A stretch of DNA of 64,000 nucleotides from positions 208,394-272,393 of IMG/VR virus record IMGVR_UViG_3300024308_000016; one strand, 5' to 3'. Positions 5,524 to 39,902 of the stretch are shown in pieces (the stretch's first letter is position 1; the number at the start of each line of letters is the position of its first letter). The DNA comes from a virus. Position numbers and translations under genes: made by a program. The notes below the pieces were generated by a model. It had not been told where the DNA came from, made no database searches, and saw nothing but the letters and a program-made list of their open reading frames with translations.

Positions 5524-6834
5524 TTACTTGTTGTAGAAGGGGTTGGAGCGAGCGGCCATCAGGTACGATGCCGACGCATGCGTGGCTGTGATGAACAGCT
5601 TGCCACCGCGGTTGATCTTGCGGATGCCCTGAGGCACGACACTCATGTTGGTGACCTTCTCCGCCTCGATGGTCATCCACAGCATGAACTGTACCCATTC
5701 CTGGGTCTCGGGCTTCATGCGCTGGAAGTCCGGAGATGTAGAAGGCACATCGATGAAGTCCGGATACAGGGTCTTCAGATCCTTCATGCCGGGCTGGTTG
5801 TTTTCCCCGTTCACGCTCAGCAGCGTCACCGACTTGTACGTCATGGGGAAGACGTTCAGATTGGCGCGCACATGGTTGGCGTTCATGAAATTGGTCAGCG
5901 TCACTGCGAAGTTCATGGACTCCTGGACATTGCTCATTGGCGAGTACAGGCCACTGAGCGTAGTCATGTTGGGGACCGAATGCAGATCCCAGCGTGGGTA
6001 AATCACGAATTCGGTACGCTTGAACAGGTCCGGGAACCAGGGTTCGAGCTCATGCTCCGGCGCTCCCGTGGATTCGACCAAGTCCTTGATCACTGCGTCC
6101 TTGATGGCGTCGGTGTTGTCACCGGCGGCTCCATAGATCAAGATACCCCAGTTGGTGGTGATCCGCTGGTCGGGATTGAACTTGTTGACGTAGTCAGTCT
6201 CGAAGATCGTGAAGACCGTCTCGGGCTTCAGGTTCTTGGCGGTCTGTGCCTCCAGCACAATGTCAGTGACGCTCTTTTTGTTGAGCTCATTGACGGCGAG
6301 CTGCCAGTCGCGCAGGAAGATCCGAGGATCTGGCACCGGACGGATGATCTTGTGATGATACTCCGGATACTCGGTGAGAAACACATCGTTGCTCATCCAG
6401 ATCTTGAAGTTGCTCAGATCTTCAAGCTTGGAGGTGAAGCTGAACCAGCTGGGAAGAGCGATGCCGGCGCCGTCGACCAAATCACCGAACTGAAGATCCT
6501 CGATCTCAGCGTAGTACTCAGCGGCAATGGCTGCGAGGAAATCCTGTGGGTTCGTCACCCCCAAGTGTGCCAGCGCATACTCATGGATGGACCGGATCAC
6601 CCGAAGGCCCTGATTGCTTTCGATGGTCGACAGCATCACTTCTTGGTTGCTGTTGGCATCTCGGCTGCTCATGGAGATCAGACGGTAGCCGGAGATCGAA
6701 GGATCCCAGTACTCGCCCTTCTCCATACTGTAGGTCTCACCCCACGTCGACAGCTCACCCACCGGGGAGTTGATCCCGGGGGTATTGATCAGCAAATCTG
6801 CGATCGTCGAAAAGCCTAGTATTTTCTTACGCAC
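5524..6834 (-). CDS. Virion structural protein candidate (436 aa)
   Basis: The start is GTG at 6834, with AGGAG about 10 nt upstream; no nearer ATG fits. The protein looks soluble, with mixed alpha/beta content and no transmembrane segment or motif I recognise. It shares a minus-strand operon with the 207-residue coiled-coil protein and is divergent from the membrane-protein/RNase H operon. A tail or baseplate structural role is inferred only from context. Confidence 0.7.
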   Translation of the reverse strand: MRKKILGFSTIADLLINTPGINSPVGELSTWGETYSMEKGEYWDPSISGYRLISMSSRDANSNQEVMLSTIESNQGLRVIRSIHEYALAHLGVTNPQDFLAAIAAEYYAEIEDLQFGDLVDGAGIALPSWFSFTSKLEDLSNFKIWMSNDVFLTEYPEYHHKIIRPVPDPRIFLRDWQLAVNELNKKSVTDIVLEAQTAKNLKPETVFTIFETDYVNKFNPDQRITTNWGILIYGAAGDNTDAIKDAVIKDLVESTGAPEHELEPWFPDLFKRTEFVIYPRWDLHSVPNMTTLSGLYSPMSNVQESMNFAVTLTNFMNANHVRANLNVFPMTYKSVTLLSVNGENNQPGMKDLKTLYPDFIDVPSTSPDFQRMKPETQEWVQFMLWMTIEAEKVTNMSVVPQGIRKINRGGKLFITATHASASYLMAARSNPFYNK

Positions 6835-7260: not shown

Positions 7261-8804
7261 TCGAACTTGACCAGACCAAGAACTGGGGCATCGTCGCCTA
7301 CACTGACGGTGGCGCACGTCCCAATCCCGGCGCCACCGGCGCTGGGATACACGCCTATCTGTACGAGATAGATGCCAAGCCCGATCGCATCAAAGCCATG
7401 CGCTTTACCGTGGAAGATGTCTCACGTTACGCCATCCCCACGGTCAATGGCTATAAATACACCGACAAGGACGGAAAGATCTCGGCAGCCAAGGATAAGG
7501 AAGCCGTCCCTGTCAAGCCATCGTTCTTCCTGGAGATCTCCAAGAGCTCTTCAGGACAGCTGTCGAACAACTACGCCGAGCTCGAAGCCTTTCACCAAGT
7601 GCTGCTCACGTGCCGAGCGTACCTGTTCAAGCGCCTGCATGTCTGCGCGGACTCCATGTATGTGATCAATGGGATCACCGACTGGTGCAAGGGATGGGAG
7701 CGTAACGGCTTTCGCAACCGCTTCGGCGAACATATCAGCAACCGCGATCTATGGATGGCAGTCTGGGATCAGTTCAAGCTCATGCGCACTGAGGGCTACC
7801 AGATCTCGATCTCTCACGTCAAAGGTCATGCCGGACATCCGGGCAACAACCAAGCAGATTGGCTCGCTACCATCGGAGTGCTCCGAAGTCGAGACCTGCT
7901 GGACCAGACTGATGTGCGGCTGTACACGCCCAAGGAGTACTGGGAGCCCAAGCGAGAGCGCCATCCACTTCTGTGCCTGAAGCGCTTGTACTTCGACCGC
8001 CTGGGTGAGAACTACCAGCCGGGCAAGTATTTCATGGCTGACCCTGGTAAAGACGAGTCGTTGATCGGCAAACCCATGCCCGAGACCGTGTATGCCATCG
8101 TCCGCATGCATGAGCCTCACCCTATCATCGAGGCAGTGATGCGCAAGCAGTTCAACTACGGACAAGACTTCAACGAAGTCATGCGGATCAAGACGGACAA
8201 CTTGTTCGTGCCGGATGTGTACCGCATCATCCAGTCGCATGGTGCTTACGGGATGCTGCAGTTGTCATCAGCCAACAGCAATATCTACTGCGTCAATGAA
8301 GTGCCACTGACCCAGGAGCTGCGGCCTATCGGAATCATGATGCGAGCCATCGATTCCCTGAACTCCCTCGACGGCGTCTTTGACCAGTATCTGGAGATGA
8401 AGAAGTCGCCCGAGGCATTTGCGCTCACCAACAACCAGCTGCTCCAAGCTCATGATCTCACAGGTGAGTTCTACGAGACAGTGGAAAAGAAGGTCGGAAA
8501 GGAAGTCCGGCTTTCCAAGGTCTTGAAGAAGACCATTGGTGTGGGCTACAAAGACCATCCCATCGAGTTCAGTCTTGCCAACAAGGACGGCACTTCCCAG
8601 GATCGCAAGCTCAAGCTCAAGCTCGCTCTCGACCTTCCGGAACGTAATATGCTGAAACAATTGGAAACCGAGGATGTAACAGTAGAACTTATCACTTGGA
8701 GAGAGTCCGAACTCTCCGTCCGCTACGCGACTGTGATAAGCTGCTCAGCTGGGATGGCTATCTGGTCGAACTTTTATGCTGACCGCCTGATCTTGAAAGA
8801 GTGA
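7257..8804 (+). CDS. RNase H-domain protein (RNase HI-type N-terminus)
   Basis: The product has 515 residues. The N-terminal ~200 residues form an RNase HI domain with the four acidic residues in order: YTDGG, the glutamate of NNYAELEAF, CADSM and NNQADWLA, plus HVKGHAG before the last one. It would cleave RNA in RNA:DNA hybrids, for example removing primers. The ~300-residue C-terminal extension is not recognised. Near residue 228 it carries YWEPKRERHPLL, a motif also found at the end of the RecA-like protein in this window. I chose TTG at 7257 because GGAG precedes it by about 8 nt and it overlaps the TGA of the preceding gene (TTGA). RNase H followed by a RecA-like gene matches phiKZ gp155/gp152. 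Confidence 0.88.
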   Translation: MIELDQTKNWGIVAYTDGGARPNPGATGAGIHAYLYEIDAKPDRIKAMRFTVEDVSRYAIPTVNGYKYTDKDGKISAAKDKEAVPVKPSFFLEISKSSSGQLSNNYAELEAFHQVLLTCRAYLFKRLHVCADSMYVINGITDWCKGWERNGFRNRFGEHISNRDLWMAVWDQFKLMRTEGYQISISHVKGHAGHPGNNQADWLATIGVLRSRDLLDQTDVRLYTPKEYWEPKRERHPLLCLKRLYFDRLGENYQPGKYFMADPGKDESLIGKPMPETVYAIVRMHEPHPIIEAVMRKQFNYGQDFNEVMRIKTDNLFVPDVYRIIQSHGAYGMLQLSSANSNIYCVNEVPLTQELRPIGIMMRAIDSLNSLDGVFDQYLEMKKSPEAFALTNNQLLQAHDLTGEFYETVEKKVGKEVRLSKVLKKTIGVGYKDHPIEFSLANKDGTSQDRKLKLKLALDLPERNMLKQLETEDVTVELITWRESELSVRYATVISCSAGMAIWSNFYADRLILKE

Positions 8805-8829
8805 GGGCTCGCTAAAGTAGAGTCCATGA

Positions 8830-9291
8830 ATGCACAGTTTCCTTAACGCTACCGCTCCTGTCGGGGTTCCATCGATCTCCGCCGCTGCGCTTTCCGTGAT
8901 GGGTAAGATATTCCCGTCACGCATCAAACGACTCATGTTCGTCTTCAGTGTCCTTGGTTTCGTAGACGAGGCCATCGAAGATGACATGAAACTCATCGAT
9001 CAGCTCAATGGTCTACTGCGCTTACCTAAATCGCCAGACGTCTGCAAGGCGTCCATGCAAGTCAAGCATGCGATCTGGCAGGGCACAGGGATCAACTTCG
9101 AGTACATGGACCTTCATAGGCCCATGGAGGCGAGGAGAGCTGCTCTTGCCAATGACCGCGATCGCATGGTCACGTACTTTATCGACAACTGCCCCAAGTG
9201 GTTGCGATATGGACACGAGACTGCCGACATGCGCCGTGATCTCAACCATCTGTTCAAAGTCGTCGGGGAACTCCAACCCGAACTGGCTTGA
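8830..9291 (+). CDS. Hypothetical protein, 153 aa
   Basis: This is an open frame directly downstream of the RNase H gene on the same strand, starting at ATG 8830 with only a weak upstream GAG. The protein is mostly helical with a hydrophobic stretch near residues 35-48 (LMFVFSVLGFV), possibly membrane-associated. It is followed by a hairpin terminator. No family was recognised. The tight spacing in the operon supports it being real. Confidence 0.6.
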   Translation: MHSFLNATAPVGVPSISAAALSVMGKIFPSRIKRLMFVFSVLGFVDEAIEDDMKLIDQLNGLLRLPKSPDVCKASMQVKHAIWQGTGINFEYMDLHRPMEARRAALANDRDRMVTYFIDNCPKWLRYGHETADMRRDLNHLFKVVGELQPELA

Positions 9292-9307
9292 TGGCAGCAG
9301 GCCATAT

Positions 9308-9344
9308 ACCTATACCCCGTCCCCACAAGGGACGAGGTATAGGT
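9308..9344. terminator. Bidirectional two-part hairpin
   Basis: Outer stem CCTATACC / GGTATAGG and inner stem GTCCC / GGGAC are closed by an ACAA-containing loop, between convergent genes ending at 9291 and 9376. Confidence 0.65.
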
Positions 9345-9375
9345 TCTATGATGTCCAGTTTTCGGAAGATGTGCC

Positions 9376-10242
9376 TTAACCGGCGACGTTCTTCAGGCCG
9401 GTCAGCCGTTCAGCCATCTTGCCCACTGCGCCGATGGCTTCTTCCAGACGGTGGCGGAACACCCCCAGGAACTCGACATAATGGGCCACAGCCAAGGCAC
9501 CCTGGGCGATGGAGTTTGCCGCAGGTGCCGAGATGTTCTCGATGGCCTGTTCGTTGGAGCGCTCGATCACCAGGTTCAGGAGAGCAGAGATGTCCTTGAC
9601 GTTACCCATCACGTCCTTACGGTCGGTCTGGATGCGGACTTTGTTGACGTCCTTGGCCAGGTTGACCGTATCCACGATGTCCATGCCTTGGTCAAACACA
9701 GCGTACAGAGGCAGGACGCTGACGGTGCTCTTGGGGTTGAAGTAGCTCGCCAGCTGCTTGCGCTGCTCGTTCATCCGCCTTTCGATCCCTTGATAAACAG
9801 ACGAATAATCGCGAAGCGCCGTTTTAGCGTCGGCAGAAGAGATGAAAGCAGAAAGCGCACGACGGTAGTCCTCCAGTAGTTTGTCGCGTTCCTTGAGGAT
9901 CTCGTTGCCGGTCTCCTTGAGGAATTTCAGATAGGGTACATACTTTGCGTTCAGCCCCTGCGGCACCGCCACCAGCAGCTCGTCCATGGCGACGAAGTTC
10001 ATCGCCAGCGCGTTGTGCTCATAGGTGGAGAAGGCGCGGGTCTGCTTGTCGAAGTCAAACTCCACGTCGTCCTTGGCGGTGAATGCCCGGATGGAGTCCT
10101 CCAGATACTGGGACACCGAGGGGAAGACATTTCGAAACACATTGATCACATTGGCTGTGACCAGACCCTCCAAATTGAGGGTGTTGACCGCAGTGACGGC
10201 GGCTCGCTCGATGGGCGGGAGAGTGGAGAGTTCAATCGTCAT
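9376..10242 (-). CDS. Helical protein, phiKZ-like conserved hypothetical
   Basis: The product has 288 residues. I chose ATG at 10242 because the upstream extension of the frame runs through the divergent intergenic region into the RecA-like gene. The sequence is almost wholly alpha-helical with heptad-like stretches (residues about 115-160 and 230-280). No enzymatic motif is visible. It lies between RNase H and RecA-like genes on the opposite strand. A structural or inner-capsid role is possible but not shown. Confidence 0.7.
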   Translation of the reverse strand: MTIELSTLPPIERAAVTAVNTLNLEGLVTANVINVFRNVFPSVSQYLEDSIRAFTAKDDVEFDFDKQTRAFSTYEHNALAMNFVAMDELLVAVPQGLNAKYVPYLKFLKETGNEILKERDKLLEDYRRALSAFISSADAKTALRDYSSVYQGIERRMNEQRKQLASYFNPKSTVSVLPLYAVFDQGMDIVDTVNLAKDVNKVRIQTDRKDVMGNVKDISALLNLVIERSNEQAIENISAPAANSIAQGALAVAHYVEFLGVFRHRLEEAIGAVGKMAERLTGLKNVAG

Positions 10243-10339
10243 TTTACGTCCTTTGCTCCCCGATTTCGGGCAGCAGAAAAATAGCTGAGGATGCCATAGT
10301 ATGGCGTAACTGACACCCCTGAGTATACAAGGAAAATCA

Positions 10340-28532: not shown

Positions 28533-30553
28533 ATGGCAAAAGACATTGACCCACTGAAGATAGAGCTGCTCATCCCCATGAAGACGGACTTGCAGGGTGT
28601 CAAGCCCGTGCTGGTCATGGACATCATGAGCGGCATGAGCAAGAACTTCCACCCTGAGGGCTTGTTCTCGGTGGAGATCTTCGGTAAAGTCGGAGAAACT
28701 ACACGCTCGGCCACCTTCGCCTATATCAACTTGAATATCCCGGTGTTTCACCCGCTGCTGTTCAAGGTGATCTGCGATTTGAAGGAGCTGTACCAAGACA
28801 TCATGGCCGGTAAGGCCTACGCAGTGTTCGATGAGGAAAAGAAGGACTTCTTCAAGAGCAACATTGCAGAAGGTGAAACCGGCTTTGCGTTCTTTTTGAA
28901 GCACTTCCCCAAGCTGCAGTTCGAAGAGCGTAAATCCATCACCCGGGCTGAGTACATCCGTCTGGTGGAGATGTACCGCGATAACCCCTTCATCGAGCAA
29001 CTGGTCATCTTGCCCGCCGGTGTGCGGGACTATGTGGTCGAAGAAGACGGCAAGCCTTCGGAAGACGAGATCAACGGTATGTACCGCTCCATCATGGCAG
29101 TGGCTGGCTCCATGGAGAACGTGCGCGCTGATGTGAACCCTGAGTTCATCGATGCGTCCAGATACAACCTGCAAGTCAAGCTGCTGGAGATCTACCGATA
29201 CCTGATCGGCCTGATCTTGGGCAAGCACAAGATGGTCCAAGGCGCGTTCTTGAGCCGCAAGGTCTCCAACACCACGCGAAACGTGATCACCTCTTATATC
29301 CCGAACGTGCAAGAGTTCGGCGATGCCAGAAGCGTGCGTGCTGACCAGACGGTGATCGGCCTGTACCAGTTCACCCGAGACATCATGCCGCTGGCGGTGC
29401 ATGCCATTGTGGGCAAGTACCTGCCCAAGGTTTTCACGGGTCCCAATACCCCGGCTCAGCTGGTCAATCCAAAAACCCTGCACAAGGAAATGGTGACCGT
29501 CAACCCCCGGGAGTACAAGAAGTGGATGACCTACGAAGGCATCGAGAAGATGGCCGATCGATTCTCCGAAGAGTCGATGCGCCATTACCCGATCATGATC
29601 GAAGGCTACTACATGGGCCTCGTGTACAAGGGCAATGACGGCACGTTCAAGTTCATCCAGGACATCGACGAGATCCCGGAGTCCCGCTCCAAAGATAGCG
29701 TCACTCCCATCACCATGGCGGAGTTCCTGTACATGTGCCTGTACGAGGAAGCCCTGGACGCCTGGGGTTATACCACTCGGTATCCTATCTCCGGCTATGG
29801 ATCGACCTACCCGGGTGGGGTCGCTCTGAGAACTACCGTGCGATCGGAAGTGCGCACTGAGCTGGACGACTACTGGCAACCGATGCCTCACCAAGCGGTG
29901 AGCTTTCCGTTGCCGGGTGCGCAGTTCTTCAACTCCATGAGCCCAGCTGTCCGCCAAATTGGCCGGCTGGGGGCTGATATAAATACAGCTTTCACTCCCC
30001 TAAATCGCATATACAGCTATCCCAGACGAGGGATGTGAGTGACTAAGGGTGTAAGCGTATATGTCCTTCTGTCTAGTAATAGACAGTCGAAACTTCTTTA
30101 ATTGCTGGAAACCCCTGAGAGCCGACCACACCACTGCGAGCGGTAACGTAAAGCGACGGTTTTAAGAAATGGGCGGATTGGGCAATCAGCAGCCAAGCCT
30201 CTTACTGAGAGGAAGGTCCAACGATCATCGGGTAGCTCCGAGTAAAGCCCCAAGCGGGGAAGAAATGGGAAGGGTCCTACCAGGTCATGCTGGGGATCTT
30301 GATATGATCTGCTCCTCATGGAAACATGAGGCGGGTGTCTGTAGCACACCGGGACTGCGTAGCGAGCAGTCTGGACAATAGGTACGACGGGGACCAATGT
30401 TCTCACTATTGTGTACTGACCCAGGAAGCCAAGCGAGAAGTCAAGCGTATGCTCGCTAGCAGGGATTATTACATGAACCTGGACGGCACCATGGCGTTCA
30501 GCCAAAACAACGACTACATCTCTTTGGCGCTCAAGTATCTTACTGCGCGCTGA
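28533..30553 (+). CDS. Virion RNA polymerase beta-prime subunit, N-terminal part, interrupted by a group I intron (phiKZ gp180-like)
   Basis: Exons are 28533-29978 and 30383-30553, giving 538 residues. SRKVSNTTRNVITSYIPN near residue 240 matches the GKRVDFSGRSVI region of RpoC. The splice joins GRLGAD to YDGDQCSHYCVLT, rebuilding the NADFDGD metal-binding motif with Asp 482, 484 and 486. The remaining residues match the RpoC stretch after it (TLEAQ..., then LGLYYMTR), and the gene ends there, as beta-prime is split in phiKZ-like phages; the rest must be elsewhere. Unspliced, exon 1 stops at 30038 after 20 intron-encoded residues that lack the second and third aspartates. The gene is divergent from the tape measure and 17 nt upstream of beta. 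Confidence 0.88.
29979..30382 (+). ncRNA. Group I self-splicing intron 1, in RNAP beta-prime catalytic motif
   Basis: It is 404 nt without a credible ORF. All four conserved core elements appear in order: P AATTGCTGGAAAC (30100-30112), Q AATCAGCAGCCAAG (30184-30197), R GGTCCAACGATCA (30215-30227), S CTTGATATGATCTG (30298-30311); R and S can form P7 (CGATCA / TGATC). Exon 1 ends in U and the intron ends in G, as the family requires. Boundaries were set by restoring GAD|YDGDQ. Exon bases 29969-29976 can pair with 29986-29993 (GGGGGCTG / CAGCTTTC), placing the splice site beside this helix, but the usual U-G pair was not found, so P1 is uncertain. Confidence 0.88.
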
Positions 30554-30570: not shown

Positions 30571-33500
30571 ATGGGCTTTCAGCAATACAAGGATTGGTAT
30601 CGGGATCATGGCACACGCAATGCGCTGAGCCTGATGAACGTCGATCCCACGCCGGTCAAGAACCTGCCCCAGGGCTCGACCCTGCACTACCTGGGCTCCG
30701 ATGATGCCCCACTGCCTGATCTGTCTGATCCCCTGTTTGCTGGGTACTCTAATAAGATCGAGCTGCACTCCATCACGGAGTACAACGGAGCCACCGAGCC
30801 CCACGGCTCCAAGCTAGCGGTACAGGTGGTCAAACAAACCACGGACTTTGCGTCTCGCAGCAAGCTGTTCCACTACTTGAAGACCCTGAACCTGTCCACA
30901 GTCTCCAACAGCCAGCTGGTGGTGGTGAGCTACGGCTTCTTGGATTTGATGTACCGCTATCCGGCAGTATCGACTTCCAAGTACTATCAGTTTCGCAACA
31001 AACTGCAGACGTTTGTCTCCACGGTGAACTTCCTGAACCGGGACAAGCCCAGGAACAACTTCATTGTGCTGACGGTGCCATCCGAGCTGGTAGGCCGCAA
31101 CACGCTGGACAACCGGGCGCTGGGCCAACCCAAGCAAGTCGCCAGCATCTTTGACACCGAGGAGAAGGTGGTGTTGCGCGAGATGTGGCTGTGGTGTAAT
31201 CCCGATACCCGGGACCATTCGGTCTTCGCTGACATGAGCGAGACTGATATGCGGCACTTGAACTTGATGTTCAAGACTTACACAGGTGAATACACCACGG
31301 TCTCGTTTGGCTATCTGTACAGCTGGATGAAGGGCAACCCCAACTACACCACAGTCTCTGCTGTGATGCAGGTGAGCTTCATCGAGCTGCAAAAGTACTG
31401 GCTCAAGTACTTGATGGTGCTGCAAACTATCAACGCCAATGGTGCATCGCTGGCCGAGCAGGAGAAAGCCGCAGCCGAGGCGATGGTCAAGGCAGAGACC
31501 GCCACTGATCCCGACAAGGAGGCTCCTGAGGGCGACCAGCCCCAGGAAGAGCGATTTCCCGAAGTACCGACTGAAGGACACTCTGGACTGGGAACAAGTA
31601 GCTCAGGCGACGGGCGTGACACCGCAACAAGCAAGGCTACTGCTGGCGACACTATTGAAGCCGAGATCGATATTACCCAGCAGCTCAAAGAACTCGACGC
31701 GGATATAGCCGCGCTCGATGCACTGGACAAGCGCAAGTTCGACAACAAGTTCGTGGTCAAGAAAGACGCCGATGGTGAAGAGCTCATCGACGTCAAGGAC
31801 GTGACACCGGAAGTATATACCTCCGACATCCCGGAGACTGCTGAAGCCATCGCGGCGAAGATCTTCACCGCCAAGACCGCCAAGCAAGCTCTCCTGGACA
31901 AGATCGACGCAGCCGCTGATGAAGGCCGCATCTCCGTGTCCGACTACCGCAAGCTCAGCGAGCAAGCCAGGAAGTCCGACCAAGCGCAAGACCCCTTCGG
32001 CTCCGACAAGACTATTGCCGAGGCTATGAAGATCGAGCCCGGGGAGCTGGAGATCACCCAGCAAGAAGCAGCACTGAATGTGCCGCCCACTGTGCTCGAT
32101 CCGTCGATGGCCGCAGCTCCCCTGTCGGTGATGGATCGCAAGTACAACACCTCTATCATCTACAAGGATGTGCTGAGGTCGGTGCAGGCTATCCAAAAGG
32201 CTGGCATCATCGTACGTCGCCATGAGGTGGAGACCAAGTACTCGGAAATGGGTACGTTCGATGTGCACACCATCGAGCTCAAACCCGTCAACGGCAACCC
32301 CTCCATCATCCGGGCACGCATACCGCGCGTCGACGAAGAAGGCATCTTCGTGGTGCGGGGTGTGCGCTACTTGGCGCGTAGCCAGATGGTGGACAAGCCC
32401 ATCCGCCGCATCGGTGTCAACCGTGTGGGCCTGACCAGCTACTACGGCAAGAGCTTCGTAGACCGGGCAACCAAGAAAGCCGATAGCTACTTGGAGACCA
32501 TCATCCGACGCCTGAACCGTGGCACCATCGAGCCAGACCAAGACATCCGGGACGTCTCTCCGGGTGATGTGTTCGACAACTACTTCGAAGCGCCCTACAT
32601 CTACAACGGTCTGGCGGCAAAGTTCCGTTCGTTCAGAGCTGGTCCGTACTTGCTGAACATGAACCACAAGGACCGGGAAAAGGCAACGACTCCCGAGATC
32701 CTCGCCAAGCTGGAAGTCAAAGGACGACGCCTGATCGGTCAGGGCCCTGGCTCTCGTCCGCTGGTGGTGGACATGGACAACCAGTTTTACCTGATCGGCC
32801 CTGACGGGGAGACTCCCGTAGGAGACATCTTTGACATCATGAAGATGGACCGCCACAATGCACCTGTGGACTTTGCGGAAGTGAAGGTCTTCTCCAAGGG
32901 GATTCCGGTCGGTGTGTTCATCGGCTACAACCTGGGATTTCGGGCACTGGTCAAGTACCTGGGAGCTCGCCACCGTCTGGTGGAAGGACGCCAGCAAAAG
33001 AAGATGGGACCCTACGAGTACGCCGTGCAGTTCAAGGACGTGGCCTACATCTTTGACCGCAGGGACAAGGCTGCATCATTGGTGCTCGCTGGTTTCCGGG
33101 CGTTTGAGAAGGACACCAAGGCGTACGACGCCGTCGAGTTCGACAACAAGGCCGTCTATACCCGACTGATGGAGTCCCGGGGTCTGACGAGTATCTATCT
33201 CAAGGAGATGGAGAACTTGGTGGACATGTTCGTTGACCCGATCACCGAGGACTTGCTCAAGGAGCTCAACGAGCCACAGACCTTTATGGGGCTGCTGGTG
33301 CGCTCGTGCGAGTTGCTCGACACCTACCACCATCCGGCGTCCCAGGACATGAACAACCAGCGTGTGCGGGGCTATGAGCGCTTCGCTGGCTTCCTGTACA
33401 AGGAGATGGCCAACTCGGTAAGGGCATTCAAGTCCAAGAACACGACAGGACGCGCTAAGGTGGACATGAGTCCGTTTGCAGTGTGGTCGCTTGTCACGCG

Positions 33501-35265
33501 TGACAACTCCGTCAAGCAAGCCGAGGACATCAATCCCATCCAGGCGCTGAAAGGCTCGGAAGCCATCACCTATGTGGGAGAAGGTGGCCGCTCCAAGGAG
33601 TCGATGAACAAGGCATCCCGCGCTCTGCACACCTCCAACCTGGGCGTGGTGTCGGTCGATGCTTCCGTAGACTCTTCGGACGTGGGTATCAACATCTTTA
33701 CCTCCGCCAACCCTGGCTTCAACTCCGTGCGTGGAATGAGCAAGAAGGGTCGTGAGATGGGACCCGCCAACCTCCTGGGCACCAGCGCGATGCTGGCACC
33801 CTTTGCGATCAATGACGATCAAACAGGTCCGCACTACTGGAGACGGTATTGTGTATCTCCCTCAATTGCGAGAACCCCCTGAGAGCTCCACTACCACTGC
33901 TAGCCGCGAGGCGAAGCGAAGGTTCTAACAAAGCTGGAGATTGGGAAACCCGCAGCCAAGCCTCTCTAGTCAGAGGAAGGTTCAACGACTATGGCAGTTT
34001 GTCAGCCATAGGGCCGAAGTGGCCCGAAACAGGGAGCATCTCTTAATCTAGAGATGAAGATATAGTCTCGACATCTGGGGAAAACCCAGAGCTGCTCTTA
34101 TACTAGAGCGGGGCAAGCGTAACGAACTTGCCTGAAGGTATCGCCAAAACGTGTCGCATTTATCTCCATCCAGCAGGCCCACACCGTGGCCACCACTGGC
34201 TACCACGCACCCGTGGTGCGTACTGGCTACGAGTCCGTGATCGGACAGCGTACTGGTGAGATGTTCGCTTCGGCTGCTCGGATGGACGGCAAGGTGATCT
34301 CGGTATCGGACTCCGGCATCTTGGTGGAGTACGCAGACGGTGAACAAAAGGGCTACACCTTGGGCACGATGTACGGACGTGCGGAAGGCTCCACCTATCC
34401 ACACAACCTCATCACTGAGATGAAGCCCGGTCAGAAGTTCAAGAAAGGCGAGTACATCTCGTACAACACCAACTTCTTTGAACCCGACCCGATCTTGCCA
34501 GGCTCCGTGGTCTACAAGGGTTCCATGCTTACGCGTGTGGCTCTGATCGAATCCTCCAACACCCATGAGGACTCCTCGACTATCAGTGAAGAACTGTCCA
34601 AGTCGATGACCACCACCACCGCCAAGGTCAAGAAGTACGCCGTGAACTTCCGGCAAAACCTGCTCAACATGGTCAAGATCGGCCAGCAGGTCAACCCTGA
34701 AGACATCATCATGACCATCGAAGATGAGATCACTGCGATGGACGACAGCTTCGGAGATGCGTCGATGGAGATCCTGGCCGCCCGTGCCAAGAACTCTCCG
34801 ACGTCCGGCTACCGTGGCCGAGTCTCTGACATCGATGTGATCTACCACGGCGACAAATCCGATATGTCCGCATCTTTGAAAGCCTTGGCTGATCGCTCCG
34901 ATCGCCGAAGAGCCGACAAGGCCAAGGCCACGGGTCGACCTGCTGTGACCGGAGCTGTTGACTCCGACTACTCGCACGACGGTGCACCGCTGATGCTCAA
35001 CAAAGCGATCATCATCGTCTACATCACCGTCTCTGAAGGAGCGGGCGTTGGTGACAAGTTGGTATTCTCCAACCAGCTCAAGAGCGTGATCGGTGAGGTC
35101 ATGCCCTACAAGCTCACCACCAAGTCTGGCCTTCCCGTGCATGCCAAGTTCGGTGCCAAGAGCTTCGCTGCCCGTATCGTGAACTCTATGATCTCGATCG
35201 GATTGCGGGGCGCAGTCCTCGACCGGCTGACTGATGTCGCCGTCGAAGCTTACGAAGGAAAGTAA
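30571..35265 (+). CDS. Virion RNA polymerase beta subunit, large N-terminal part, interrupted by a group I intron (phiKZ gp178-like)
   Basis: Exons are 30571-33819 and 34144-35265, giving 1456 residues. The splice yields APFAINDD|PKRVAFISIQQ, matching the RpoB segment [24 protein letters not shown]. Exon 2 continues RTGYESVIGQ, RMDGKVISVSDSGILVEY and later GDKLVFSNQLKSVIGEVMPY, which replaces the RpoB GDKMAGRHGNKGV stretch. The gene ends after EAYEGK; the final beta region is encoded at 12268-12927. Residues ~290-520 are an acidic, Lys/Asp-rich insertion. Unspliced, the frame stops at 33882 with 20 foreign residues after INDD. It would transcribe early genes after injection together with beta-prime. 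Confidence 0.88.
33820..34143 (+). ncRNA. Group I self-splicing intron 2, in RNAP beta
   Basis: It is 324 nt without an ORF. Core elements: P AATTGCGAGAAC (33864-33875), Q AAACCCGCAGCCAAG (33946-33960), R GGTTCAACGACTA (33979-33991), S AAGATATAGTCTCG (34057-34070); R and S form P7 (CGACTA / TAGTC). Exon 1 ends GACGAT and the intron ends in G. A P1 can be drawn between exon 33810-33819 and 33842-33851, with the splice-site U33819 facing G33842 as a U-G wobble and two purine mismatches. The sequence is clearly related to intron 1 (shared CCTGAGAGC after P, and AGCCAAGCCTCT around Q). Confidence 0.92.
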
Positions 35266-37076: not shown

Positions 37077-37792
37077 ACTACAAGCGCAACCCCGAGGCCG
37101 TGAGGGCGAACTTTGCGGTCAACAAGGCCAAGCAGGTCATCTGCCGACAGCCTTGCACCATCCAGGTGCCCAAGACGTACTTTGACTCCGGCCTGGGGCA
37201 GCTGGGCGTAGACACCAAGATCTATGGCCTGTTTCCCGTCATCTTGGAGGACGGTCAGTACTCCTTGGTGAACACCACTGCCATGTTCTCGATCTCTCCG
37301 TCGGCGACCACCATCCGCACGGTCGATGAGATCGAGTACTATGAGTTCTACTTCGCCAAGGACACGGTGGTCTGGAAAACGACAGGCTTGCTGAGCGATG
37401 CCAAGCTGATCTATGAAGTGTTCCAAGCGTTCTTCTTCATGGGTCGGGTGCCCTGGTATGTCAGCTACGACGATCACGGGCGGGTGCTGGATACAGCACC
37501 TACCTTCGCAGGCTTCGGTGCTGTGAAGAATCCCGAGGTGGTGGAATTCCTCACCGCCATGATCGCCCGAAAGGCCAACTCCATCGACAACGAGTTCCTG
37601 CGTCTGCTCATCAAGAGCTACGAGGACACGAAGATCGGCAAGGTGGAGTTCGTGCCCATGGGCTCTGTCGTAGCCTCTGTCAAGAGCTCGCTCAACAAGA
37701 TCTCGGCCGCCTACGCTCAGGACGGCATCATCAGCGCCATCGTCTCCCCAGGAGAAGATGTCGGTGTCGTCGAGAAGATCGTACGAGCATAA
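37073..37792 (+). CDS. Virion structural protein (239 aa), position of phiKZ gp176
   Basis: It starts at ATG 37073, overlapping the upstream TGA. Mixed alpha/beta composition includes YYEFYFAKDTVVWKTTG and FFMGRVPWYVSYDDHG. There are no membrane segments and no recognised family. It sits between a large head-associated candidate and the protease gene, which matches the phiKZ gp177-176-175 order, so a head role is inferred. The stop is followed after 19 nt by the protease GTG start. Confidence 0.72.
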   Translation: MNYKRNPEAVRANFAVNKAKQVICRQPCTIQVPKTYFDSGLGQLGVDTKIYGLFPVILEDGQYSLVNTTAMFSISPSATTIRTVDEIEYYEFYFAKDTVVWKTTGLLSDAKLIYEVFQAFFFMGRVPWYVSYDDHGRVLDTAPTFAGFGAVKNPEVVEFLTAMIARKANSIDNEFLRLLIKSYEDTKIGKVEFVPMGSVVASVKSSLNKISAAYAQDGIISAIVSPGEDVGVVEKIVRA

Positions 37793-37811
37793 CTCAAGAA
37801 AGGCATCTGTC

Positions 37812-38582
37812 GTGAGCGACATCATCTACACATCCACCATGCTCGCCGGCACTGGCCGCAAGGGCATCATCAAGCCAGACGCTGCGGGCTACTACACCTC
37901 GTGCATCGGGGCACTCGGCATCAAGAACGCCGCCGGCGTCATCTATGATGCCAAGATCGGCGCCAAGCTGTTCGAGTCCAACAGTGACCTGATGCGGCGC
38001 ATCGCCACGGGCAACCTGCGAGGAGAAGTCGGCCATCCTCGGCGCCAAGCTGGTATGAGCGACGACGAGTTCTTCCAGCGTTGCCTGGACATCGCTGAGC
38101 CCAACGTCTGCGTGTACTGGGCCGAGATCGGCCTGGACGAACAGTACGGCAGGAAGAACCCTGAGCTGGGCCTTCCAGAGATGGTCGGCATCATGGCGCG
38201 TTTCCGTCCAGGCGGCGCTCGTGGTGACTTCCTGGCGCGCGATATGGAAGACCCCAACACCAACGTGTGCTTCTCCATCCGCGCGTTCTCGGTGCCCTTC
38301 AAGCAAATGGGCCGCCCCATGTACGGGCTGCAGACCATTGCTACCTGGGACTACGTCAATGAGCCGGGCTTGTCGCCAGCCAACAAGTTCCAATCGCTGA
38401 CCTGCGAGGCCCTGAACACGGAAGTGATCAAGGACGCCACCGTGCAGCGCGCTTTGCGCGAGATCGAATCCGGTCATCTGACCGTGAGCTTCGAGTCGGC
38501 TGCGGCTATCCGCACGCTGGCACAACTGAGCCGCCGTCCTGCAGACGTCGCCGCTCCCACCACTTTCCTGACTGGCTGGTAA
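37812..38582 (+). CDS. Prohead (head maturation) protease, T4 gp21 / phiKZ gp175 type
   Basis: The product has 256 residues. I chose GTG 37812 because AAAGG precedes it by 9 nt; the longer frame lies inside the previous gene. GNLRGEVGHPR (around residue 75) carries the expected catalytic His, and VCFSIRAFSVPF (around 155) the Ser, followed by TIATWDYVNEPG, the usual ending of the fold. Such serine proteases cut scaffold and inner head proteins during capsid maturation; in phiKZ-like phages gp175 does this. Autocleavage is expected. The downstream hairpin ends the vRNAP-head operon. Confidence 0.75.
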   Translation: MSDIIYTSTMLAGTGRKGIIKPDAAGYYTSCIGALGIKNAAGVIYDAKIGAKLFESNSDLMRRIATGNLRGEVGHPRRQAGMSDDEFFQRCLDIAEPNVCVYWAEIGLDEQYGRKNPELGLPEMVGIMARFRPGGARGDFLARDMEDPNTNVCFSIRAFSVPFKQMGRPMYGLQTIATWDYVNEPGLSPANKFQSLTCEALNTEVIKDATVQRALREIESGHLTVSFESAAAIRTLAQLSRRPADVAAPTTFLTGW

Positions 38583-38604
38583 GCCAAAAAGAAAAGACCA
38601 TATC

Positions 38605-38634
38605 CTCCAGGGCCCCCGAAAGGGGGCCCTGGAG
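38605..38634 (+). terminator. Strong GAAA-capped hairpin
   Basis: A perfect 13-bp stem CTCCAGGGCCCCC / GGGGGCCCTGGAG with a GAAA tetraloop follows the protease gene by 22 nt. Confidence 0.75.
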
Positions 38635-38663
38635 TGGTATGTTCTATGCCGCACGTAAACAAT

Positions 38664-38690
38664 TTCAGTCACATATACCTTACCTGAGGA
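38664..38690 (+). promoter_or_regulatory. Copy B of repeated promoter-like motif, with a long leader
   Basis: This copy contains CATATACCTTACCTGAGGA and is closest to the consensus. It lies 30 nt after a terminator and 153 nt before the membrane-protein start. The leader between (38691-38843) holds no gene I can support; it includes a C/T-rich stretch and CCTCAGGTTTAACTG, which faintly resembles the motif reversed. Confidence 0.62.
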
Positions 38691-38843
38691 TGGCCACGAT
38701 CTTTTCGTAGCTGTCTCCATTCCCTCTTCCCGGAGTCCATAGAGACTCCCGTAATATAAACGAGATATCGCACCAGTGCAGGAATTCTCCTGGCTGGTTC
38801 CTCAGGTTTAACTGTCGTATACCCGGCAGAAAGGTTGGCTATT

Positions 38844-39425
38844 ATGTTCGTCGCTCCTAACACCTTCAAGCAAGCTGCATACAATGCGTTTGTTCCTGTC
38901 TTGATTGCGGACCATCTGTTCCGTACTTTGCTGATCGCCAGCTACCTGGCTGTGTGCCTGATGATCTCCTTCATCAAGGTCGATGGCTTGTTTCTTGTGA
39001 TCTACTCTTTGCTGTGCGCTGGCGTCTATGCGCTTACCTATGTGCACCTGGGCATCGCTAACCACCTGCGTTTGTATTTCGACCTCCAAGAGCTCGAACT
39101 CGCAGATGAGGTCAAGTACTGCCGAGAAGCCTACCGCGTCGTGGTGGGCCGCGTACACGCCTTGCTGCGTGTGTTCACGGTGATGGTACTGTTCACTTCT
39201 GGTATGACGGTGTTTTGCACGCTGGGCGCTGTGATGAAAGTCCACGACTCGCTGCTGAGCATCGCCATCGGTGGTAACTTGGTCAGTGCCGCCATCATGC
39301 TGGTGCTGGGTCTGACGGGTGCTTATAAGTACATGTCCACCAACTTCATCCAAGAACGTCTGGAGGACATCAGCTTCCCCCATATCCGCATCATGCTCAG
39401 CCGCGTCAAGCGCGAAGGCGTGTAA
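38844..39425 (+). CDS. Four-pass membrane protein
   Basis: The product has 193 residues. I chose ATG 38844; an in-frame TTG at 38835 lacks a better SD. Four hydrophobic segments are visible at about 25-45, 49-70, 108-130 and 139-162, with a hydrophilic loop between the second and third and a basic C-terminus (MLSRVKREGV), suggesting both ends are cytoplasmic. No family is recognised. It follows promoter-like copy B and is therefore probably transcribed separately from the head genes. Holin-like or envelope-modifying roles are possible but unproven. Confidence 0.72.
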   Translation: MFVAPNTFKQAAYNAFVPVLIADHLFRTLLIASYLAVCLMISFIKVDGLFLVIYSLLCAGVYALTYVHLGIANHLRLYFDLQELELADEVKYCREAYRVVVGRVHALLRVFTVMVLFTSGMTVFCTLGAVMKVHDSLLSIAIGGNLVSAAIMLVLGLTGAYKYMSTNFIQERLEDISFPHIRIMLSRVKREGV

Positions 39426-39449
39426 AGGGAACCAGGTAGCCATATCACT

Positions 39450-39818
39450 ATGGCTATCTTAATTCCCTTAGTTTCGATGTTCAAACCCGATCCTACAGCT
39501 AAGGTGGTGTTTTACGCGATACGCCAAAACCTCAGCTCTGGGGTCTTGGATTGTTACCCGTACCCTACACCCCGATTTGATGTAGAGAGACTCCCAGTAG
39601 AGAAAGGTGCCAGATGGAGAGTTAATCTAGTTCTTGATCCCGACCTCGGGTTTACGGACAATATGACGTCTAGATCCGACGTCCTCAGCTATTTGCTGCG
39701 AGCGCCCAAGTACATCGATGATACAGATGCATCGACGGTCCGGTCTTCGGTGACCCGGCTGCTGATGCACTGGGCTGAGATGTTTCCTTGTGGCGTACCA
39801 GATCGCATCCTCGACTGA
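39450..39818 (+). CDS. Hypothetical protein, 122 aa
   Basis: It starts at ATG 39450, with an AGG about 13 nt upstream and no strong SD; ATG 39477 is an alternative start. The protein is soluble with a Pro/Tyr-rich middle (YPYPTPRFDVERLPVEKG). It lies 24 nt after the membrane-protein gene on the same strand. No family was recognised, and the weak start makes it less certain. Confidence 0.5.
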   Translation: MAILIPLVSMFKPDPTAKVVFYAIRQNLSSGVLDCYPYPTPRFDVERLPVEKGARWRVNLVLDPDLGFTDNMTSRSDVLSYLLRAPKYIDDTDASTVRSSVTRLLMHWAEMFPCGVPDRILD

Positions 39819-39902
39819 AAAAGTGGTGGAAAAAATCTGGCTCTATCCCATCGCTGTGGGAGGATGAGCGAGATCGCGAAAGGATCCCCCTTTCTAAATT
39901 GG

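Follow-up and report, generated by a model that had tools for sequence, protein, structure and literature searches.

The window analysed here is a 64-kb stretch of DNA, bases 208394-272393 of the 272,393-base IMG/VR virus record IMGVR_UViG_3300024308_000016, and all of its features described below lie on the plus strand and are numbered from its first letter. At 28533-30553 it carries the N-terminal gene of a virion RNA polymerase beta-prime subunit in two exons, with an insert of 404 nt between them. Exon 1 (28533-29978; phrog_2986, E 8e-164, with tblastn matches to 295 phage records) has 482 codons, the final ones being GGG GCT GAT, where GAT encodes the first catalytic aspartate. Exon 2 (30383-30553), placed by junction alignment to homologues, starts with TAC GAC GGG GAC CAA and reads YDGDQ... 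to the stop, supplying the second and third catalytic aspartates. Removal of 29979-30382 gives a joined protein of 538 aa that matches PHROG 2986 “RNA polymerase beta subunit” and has homologues in the 295 phage records, mostly full-length, with coverage up to 99-100% and a top identity of about 40% (tblastn). The junction aligns without a gap with the intron-less homologues, the D-x-D-G-D motif is present in the alignment of the joined subunit, and the homology spans the entire subunit. The gene adjoins that of the beta subunit (phrog_3148), and by homology it is part of a phiKZ-type virion RNA polymerase (RNAP) of the phiKZ gp180 family, which bears out the virion-type polymerase proposed in the initial annotation of this DNA. 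We found no solved structure of a virion beta-prime subunit. Elsewhere, the same genome encodes a non-virion (nvRNAP) beta-prime gene of the phiKZ gp55 type.

As judged from its sequence, the insert is a group I intron that separates the codon of the first catalytic Asp from that of the second, and the boundaries predicted in the initial annotation, 29979-30382, proved exact to the base. A covariance-model search of the 64 kb against 4227 Rfam families matched the group I model RF00028 at 30043-30331 with 58.3 bits (E 3.2e-12), above the gathering score of 50 bits, and the 5′ exon ends in U and the intron in G, as U^...G (where ^ marks a splice site). The aspartates were also rightly placed on different exons, GAT (D) ^ TAC GAC GGG GAC, while the split motif, described before as of the NADFDGD type, reads GADYDGD here and is cut as GAD^YDGD. 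The P, Q, R, and S core elements announced earlier were all found, and the P7 pairing, identified by sequence reading and RF00028, is kept by a compensatory change: its 5′ strand in element R (GAUCA, 30223-30227) and its 3′ strand in element S (UGAUC, 30305-30309) replace the usual GACUA/UAGUC, with both strands changed and the pairing preserved. A P2 hairpin, CUGUCUA-GUAA-UAGACAG (30069-30086), was read from the sequence and is also present in the computed fold, and a P9 hairpin (30314-30331) is given by both RF00028 and the computed fold. As for P1, a candidate guide strand at 30057-30065 (GUAUAUGUC), found by eye, would pair with GAU^AUAAAU across the 5′ splice site in 8 of 9 positions, including a U.G pair at the splice site itself; an automated guide scan gave another P1 candidate of 4 bp, so that two candidates remain, and the exon side of P1 is short in this intron, 3-4 bp. 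The minimum-free-energy fold was no better than that of shuffled sequence (z -0.88), a score that is uninformative here, as it is no test of a pseudoknotted ribozyme. Left unspliced, exon 1 would continue into the intron and soon stop, as had been predicted, although after 19 codons instead of the 20 first counted. No homing nuclease ORF was found inside the 404 nt.

The adjacent beta gene is also interrupted. Its exon 1 (30571-33819; phrog_3148, E 1.7e-244) ends with ...INDD, and a second group I intron of 324 nt follows (33820-34143; RF00028 65.2 bits, placed by the junction, by homologues, and by comparison with PMC11620839), before exon 2 (34144-35265; phrog_3148 and homologue alignment). 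This intron likewise contains no nuclease gene. Birkholz et al. 2024 (PMC11620839) reported the PhiPA3 gp210 intron at this same site of the virion polymerase beta subunit, and about 14 IMG/VR loci are also split at this beta position according to protein alignment, some of them verified with Rfam.

Given that the record is a metagenome assembly, the interrupted beta-prime gene could be taken for a dead gene or an assembly artefact, but we consider this highly improbable: both exons are intact and conserved and the intron boundaries are exact, the same arrangement occurs in independently sequenced phages, and a search of the whole genome found no second virion-type beta-prime copy able to substitute for this one. 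One such case is phiKZ itself (AF399011), where a search of public phages with the nuclease-bearing intron of phage Koomba found an intron at exactly the nucleotide position occupied in the window. There, PHIKZ180 is annotated up to ...LGAD*, PHIKZ179 is an HNH_3 protein within the intron, and exon 2 (FDGDT...) lies unannotated before PHIKZ178 (AF399011, 5528-8626 of our fetched locus L015); the predicted joined exons give the junction-spanning sequence LGADFDGDTVSF. The phage KTN4, verified directly, has an empty site, and the joined phiKZ exons are 96% identical to its uninterrupted gene, the DNA being identical through the junction. The phiKZ Gp180 protein is said to contain DFDGD (PMC10612078, 2023), which fits the spliced form only. 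The phiKZ sequence contradicts PMC11878797 (2025), in which PhiPA3, and not phiKZ, is said to have an intron in an RNA polymerase gene. In the openly readable literature, we found no description of this gp180/gp179 intron, which carries a nuclease and splits the phiKZ virion beta-prime gene within the catalytic triad.

Presence or absence at the exact site, the criterion of a mobile intron, varies among the relatives, with phiKZ and others occupied and KTN4 empty. The closest relative found (two loci, L008/L038, 65% aa identity) also shows an intact motif without any group I match, and in L008 the beta intron is absent too. Among phiKZ-like records, 12/47 are occupied and 35/47 empty, a count read from alignment ends, consistent with the intron matches, and including RefSeq duplicates. 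The occupied phiKZ-like relatives encode HNH_3 nucleases, while OMKO1 has kept the same intron (88.4 bits) but lost the greater part of its nuclease gene, and fMGyn-Pae01 has a phiKZ-type intron without an intact nuclease. Three states of the site are therefore seen, namely empty, nuclease-bearing, and nuclease-less as in the window, OMKO1 being an intermediate toward the last of them.

The intron had first been presented as singular, which does not hold, given that phiKZ and its relatives are occupied at the identical site, and other sites nearby are used as well. We fetched 80 IMG/VR beta-prime loci, some of them redundant, and seven contain introns in the motif (L021, L022, L030, L033, L039, L074, and L086), so that five nucleotide positions are used in the virion beta-prime motif. 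The position between the first Asp and the aromatic residue is shared by the window, phiKZ, L021, L022, L030, and L074; the site in L086 lies one nucleotide downstream (GACT^TC) and that in L039 two (GACTT^T); L021 and L022 have second introns after the second Asp; and L033 has one after the third Asp, which scores 36.5 bits, below the Rfam cut-off. The U^...G rule holds at 16/17 intron boundaries, and the best candidate guide moves with the site (GGUC for GACU in L086, GAGUC for GACUU in L039). In L021 (9429-10183) and L022 (about 9429-10325), a predicted exon of only 6 nt, TTCGAT, stands between two group I introns, both with U^...G ends and the second with a GUCG guide matching CGAU. Separately, L033 has between its FD and GD codons (about 6353-6398) a stop-containing insert of 46 nt, too short for a group I intron, which adjoins the divergent group I intron located after GGTGAT; translational bypass was considered for this insert and rejected, as the take-off and landing codons do not match.

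The introns sharing one site do not share one origin. In a tree of intron cores (31 rows, 227 columns), a single inherited lineage for all same-site introns was rejected (one-clade AU p 2.6e-5), and it follows that the site has been colonised repeatedly; single clades of window, phiKZ, and OMKO1 (AU p 0.024) and of window, L021, and L022 (AU p 0.042) were rejected as well. The introns of the window group instead with other introns of their own genome, with moderate support (92/92 and 93/93) in a tree whose bootstrap has not settled and whose individual groupings are tentative, and this pairing suggests traffic or conversion inside genomes. These results also bear on the notion, contained in the initial annotation, that RNA folding regulates how much polymerase is made, with splicing as a gate that tunes its synthesis through temperature, Mg2+, transcription-translation coupling, or infection stage. 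The recurrent occupation of the motif, which in phiKZ and in the window phage affects the two polymerases alike, would agree with such a gate, but the intron is present or absent among near-identical phages (12/47 phiKZ-like records occupied, KTN4 empty) and among divergent ones, the closest relative and the 96%-identical phiKZ-like phages do without it, different lineages sit at one site, and the insertion positions shift by single nucleotides. We therefore rejected a regulatory switch as the main account, as unsupported and at odds with this patchy presence, and hold it to be very unlikely.

The non-virion polymerase is affected in the same way. In phiKZ, the intron carrying PHIKZ056 interrupts the beta-prime gene of this polymerase at N^ADFDGD, and the protein predicted from the joined exons has the same sequence as PDB 7OGP chain A, a solved structure deposited as PHIKZ055 | PHIKZ056.1. 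The window genome’s own nvRNAP beta-prime gene has three apparent tandem introns (L097 about 7746-9900; genome about 37745-39900), the first with an HNH_3 gene and the other two being the only ones that Rfam detects; here, the motif is cut as NA^DFDG^DALN, with an exon of ~12 nt in between, and the 3′ end of intron 2 has no terminal G (C before GAT), which may be an odd splice, a one-base loss, or an assembly error. DNA-similar introns were also noticed among RNAP2 gene fragments of Litunavirus (N4-like) phages (L102 about 2466-2771, L106 about 1994-2299), with 82% similarity over ~130 nt in LP14, RNAP2 being an unrelated single-subunit polymerase.

That HNH_3 gene, in the first nvRNAP intron after ...LHRND, is the only one in the genome, and no free-standing GIY-YIG or NUMOD4 nuclease was found there. 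Its location within an RNAP intron invites the idea that the beta-prime intron can still move, or give protection, in trans, in that this nuclease or that of a co-infecting phage cuts empty beta-prime sites, to which an occupied site would be immune. PhiPA3 gp210 offers a precedent (PMC11620839), and the pairing of window cores with introns of their own genome, over introns of the same site, is consistent with traffic within the genome; nevertheless, the nuclease in question occupies a different site, and the core similarity may reflect gene conversion instead of mobility, so we regard this reading as unlikely, though clearly less so than the two discussed above.

Very probably, the beta-prime intron is a trapped selfish self-splicing element, seated by homing or by transfer within the genome, whose nuclease was lost or never present in this copy. 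According to this proposal, a mobile phage-type group I intron would have reached a virion beta-prime gene of the phiKZ type by nuclease-driven homing, or from another intron in its genome, and settled precisely where the codon of the first catalytic Asp meets that of the second. The ribozyme would excise itself and join GAT to TAC, restoring GADYDGD, and, with its nuclease gene lost or never in the window copy, the intron would stay as a trapped selfish element and not as a regulator. It would persist because inexact deletion destroys the active site, and the protection from deletion proposed at the outset stands in this sense, as precise loss alone restores the gene. We infer splicing in the window phage, loss of the nuclease, and lack of function from these comparisons; efficient splicing is not guaranteed, given that the core scores below those of phiKZ-type introns (58 vs. 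about 90 bits). The class of element is ordinary, and its address is remarkable but recurrent.

More generally, we think it probable, on the sequence comparisons above, that the triad codons of jumbo-phage multisubunit RNAPs are a recurrent group I landing site, with five or more positions used within 12 nt of the virion motif, more in the non-virion enzyme, and several unrelated lineages, the TTCGAT of L021/L022 doing double duty as the 3′ exon of the first ribozyme and the 5′ exon of the second. In phages, selfish RNA would then have repeatedly targeted the motif that is most conserved in cellular-type RNA polymerases. For phiKZ, the reference annotation of gene 180 omits the exon with two of the three catalytic aspartates, and phiKZ and KTN4 form a natural intron-plus/intron-minus pair for measuring the cost or gain of an intron, while the very short exons of L021/L022 offer a test of two ribozymes sharing six nucleotides.

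Among the known systems, PhiPA3 gp211/gp210/gp209 resembles the window in that a group I intron interrupts highly conserved residues of a virion polymerase subunit, although in beta and not in beta-prime, its site being that of the window’s beta intron (33820-34143). The PhiPA3 intron nuclease has been shown experimentally to nick the phiKZ gene (PMC11620839). The PhiPA3 “intron weapon” model may be reciprocal, as PhiPA3 has an empty beta-prime site and that of phiKZ is occupied: phiKZ, treated as the intron-less target in that study, has nuclease-bearing introns in both of its polymerases, and competition could probably run both ways. The PHIKZ180/PHIKZ179 intron shares with that of the window the gene, the nucleotide position (GAT^TTC/TAC), and a group I core, but is 1443 nt long with an HNH nuclease, whereas the window intron has 404 nt and none; the two cores are not of one lineage (p-AU 0.024 for a single clade), and the proteins of the two phages are only about 33-34% identical. 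In the phiKZ nvRNAP (gp55/gp56/gp56.1), a group I intron, in this case with an HNH gene, cuts the same catalytic motif in the other polymerase, one codon upstream (N^ADFDGD). Finally, the nvRNAP of AR9 (gp269/gp270) is likewise a jumbo-phage enzyme whose beta-prime N-terminal gene is split by an intron, this one with an HNH gene around which the depositors annotated gp269 as a two-part join, but it differs from the window in being the non-virion enzyme of a Bacillus phage, with a site apparently several codons past the motif.
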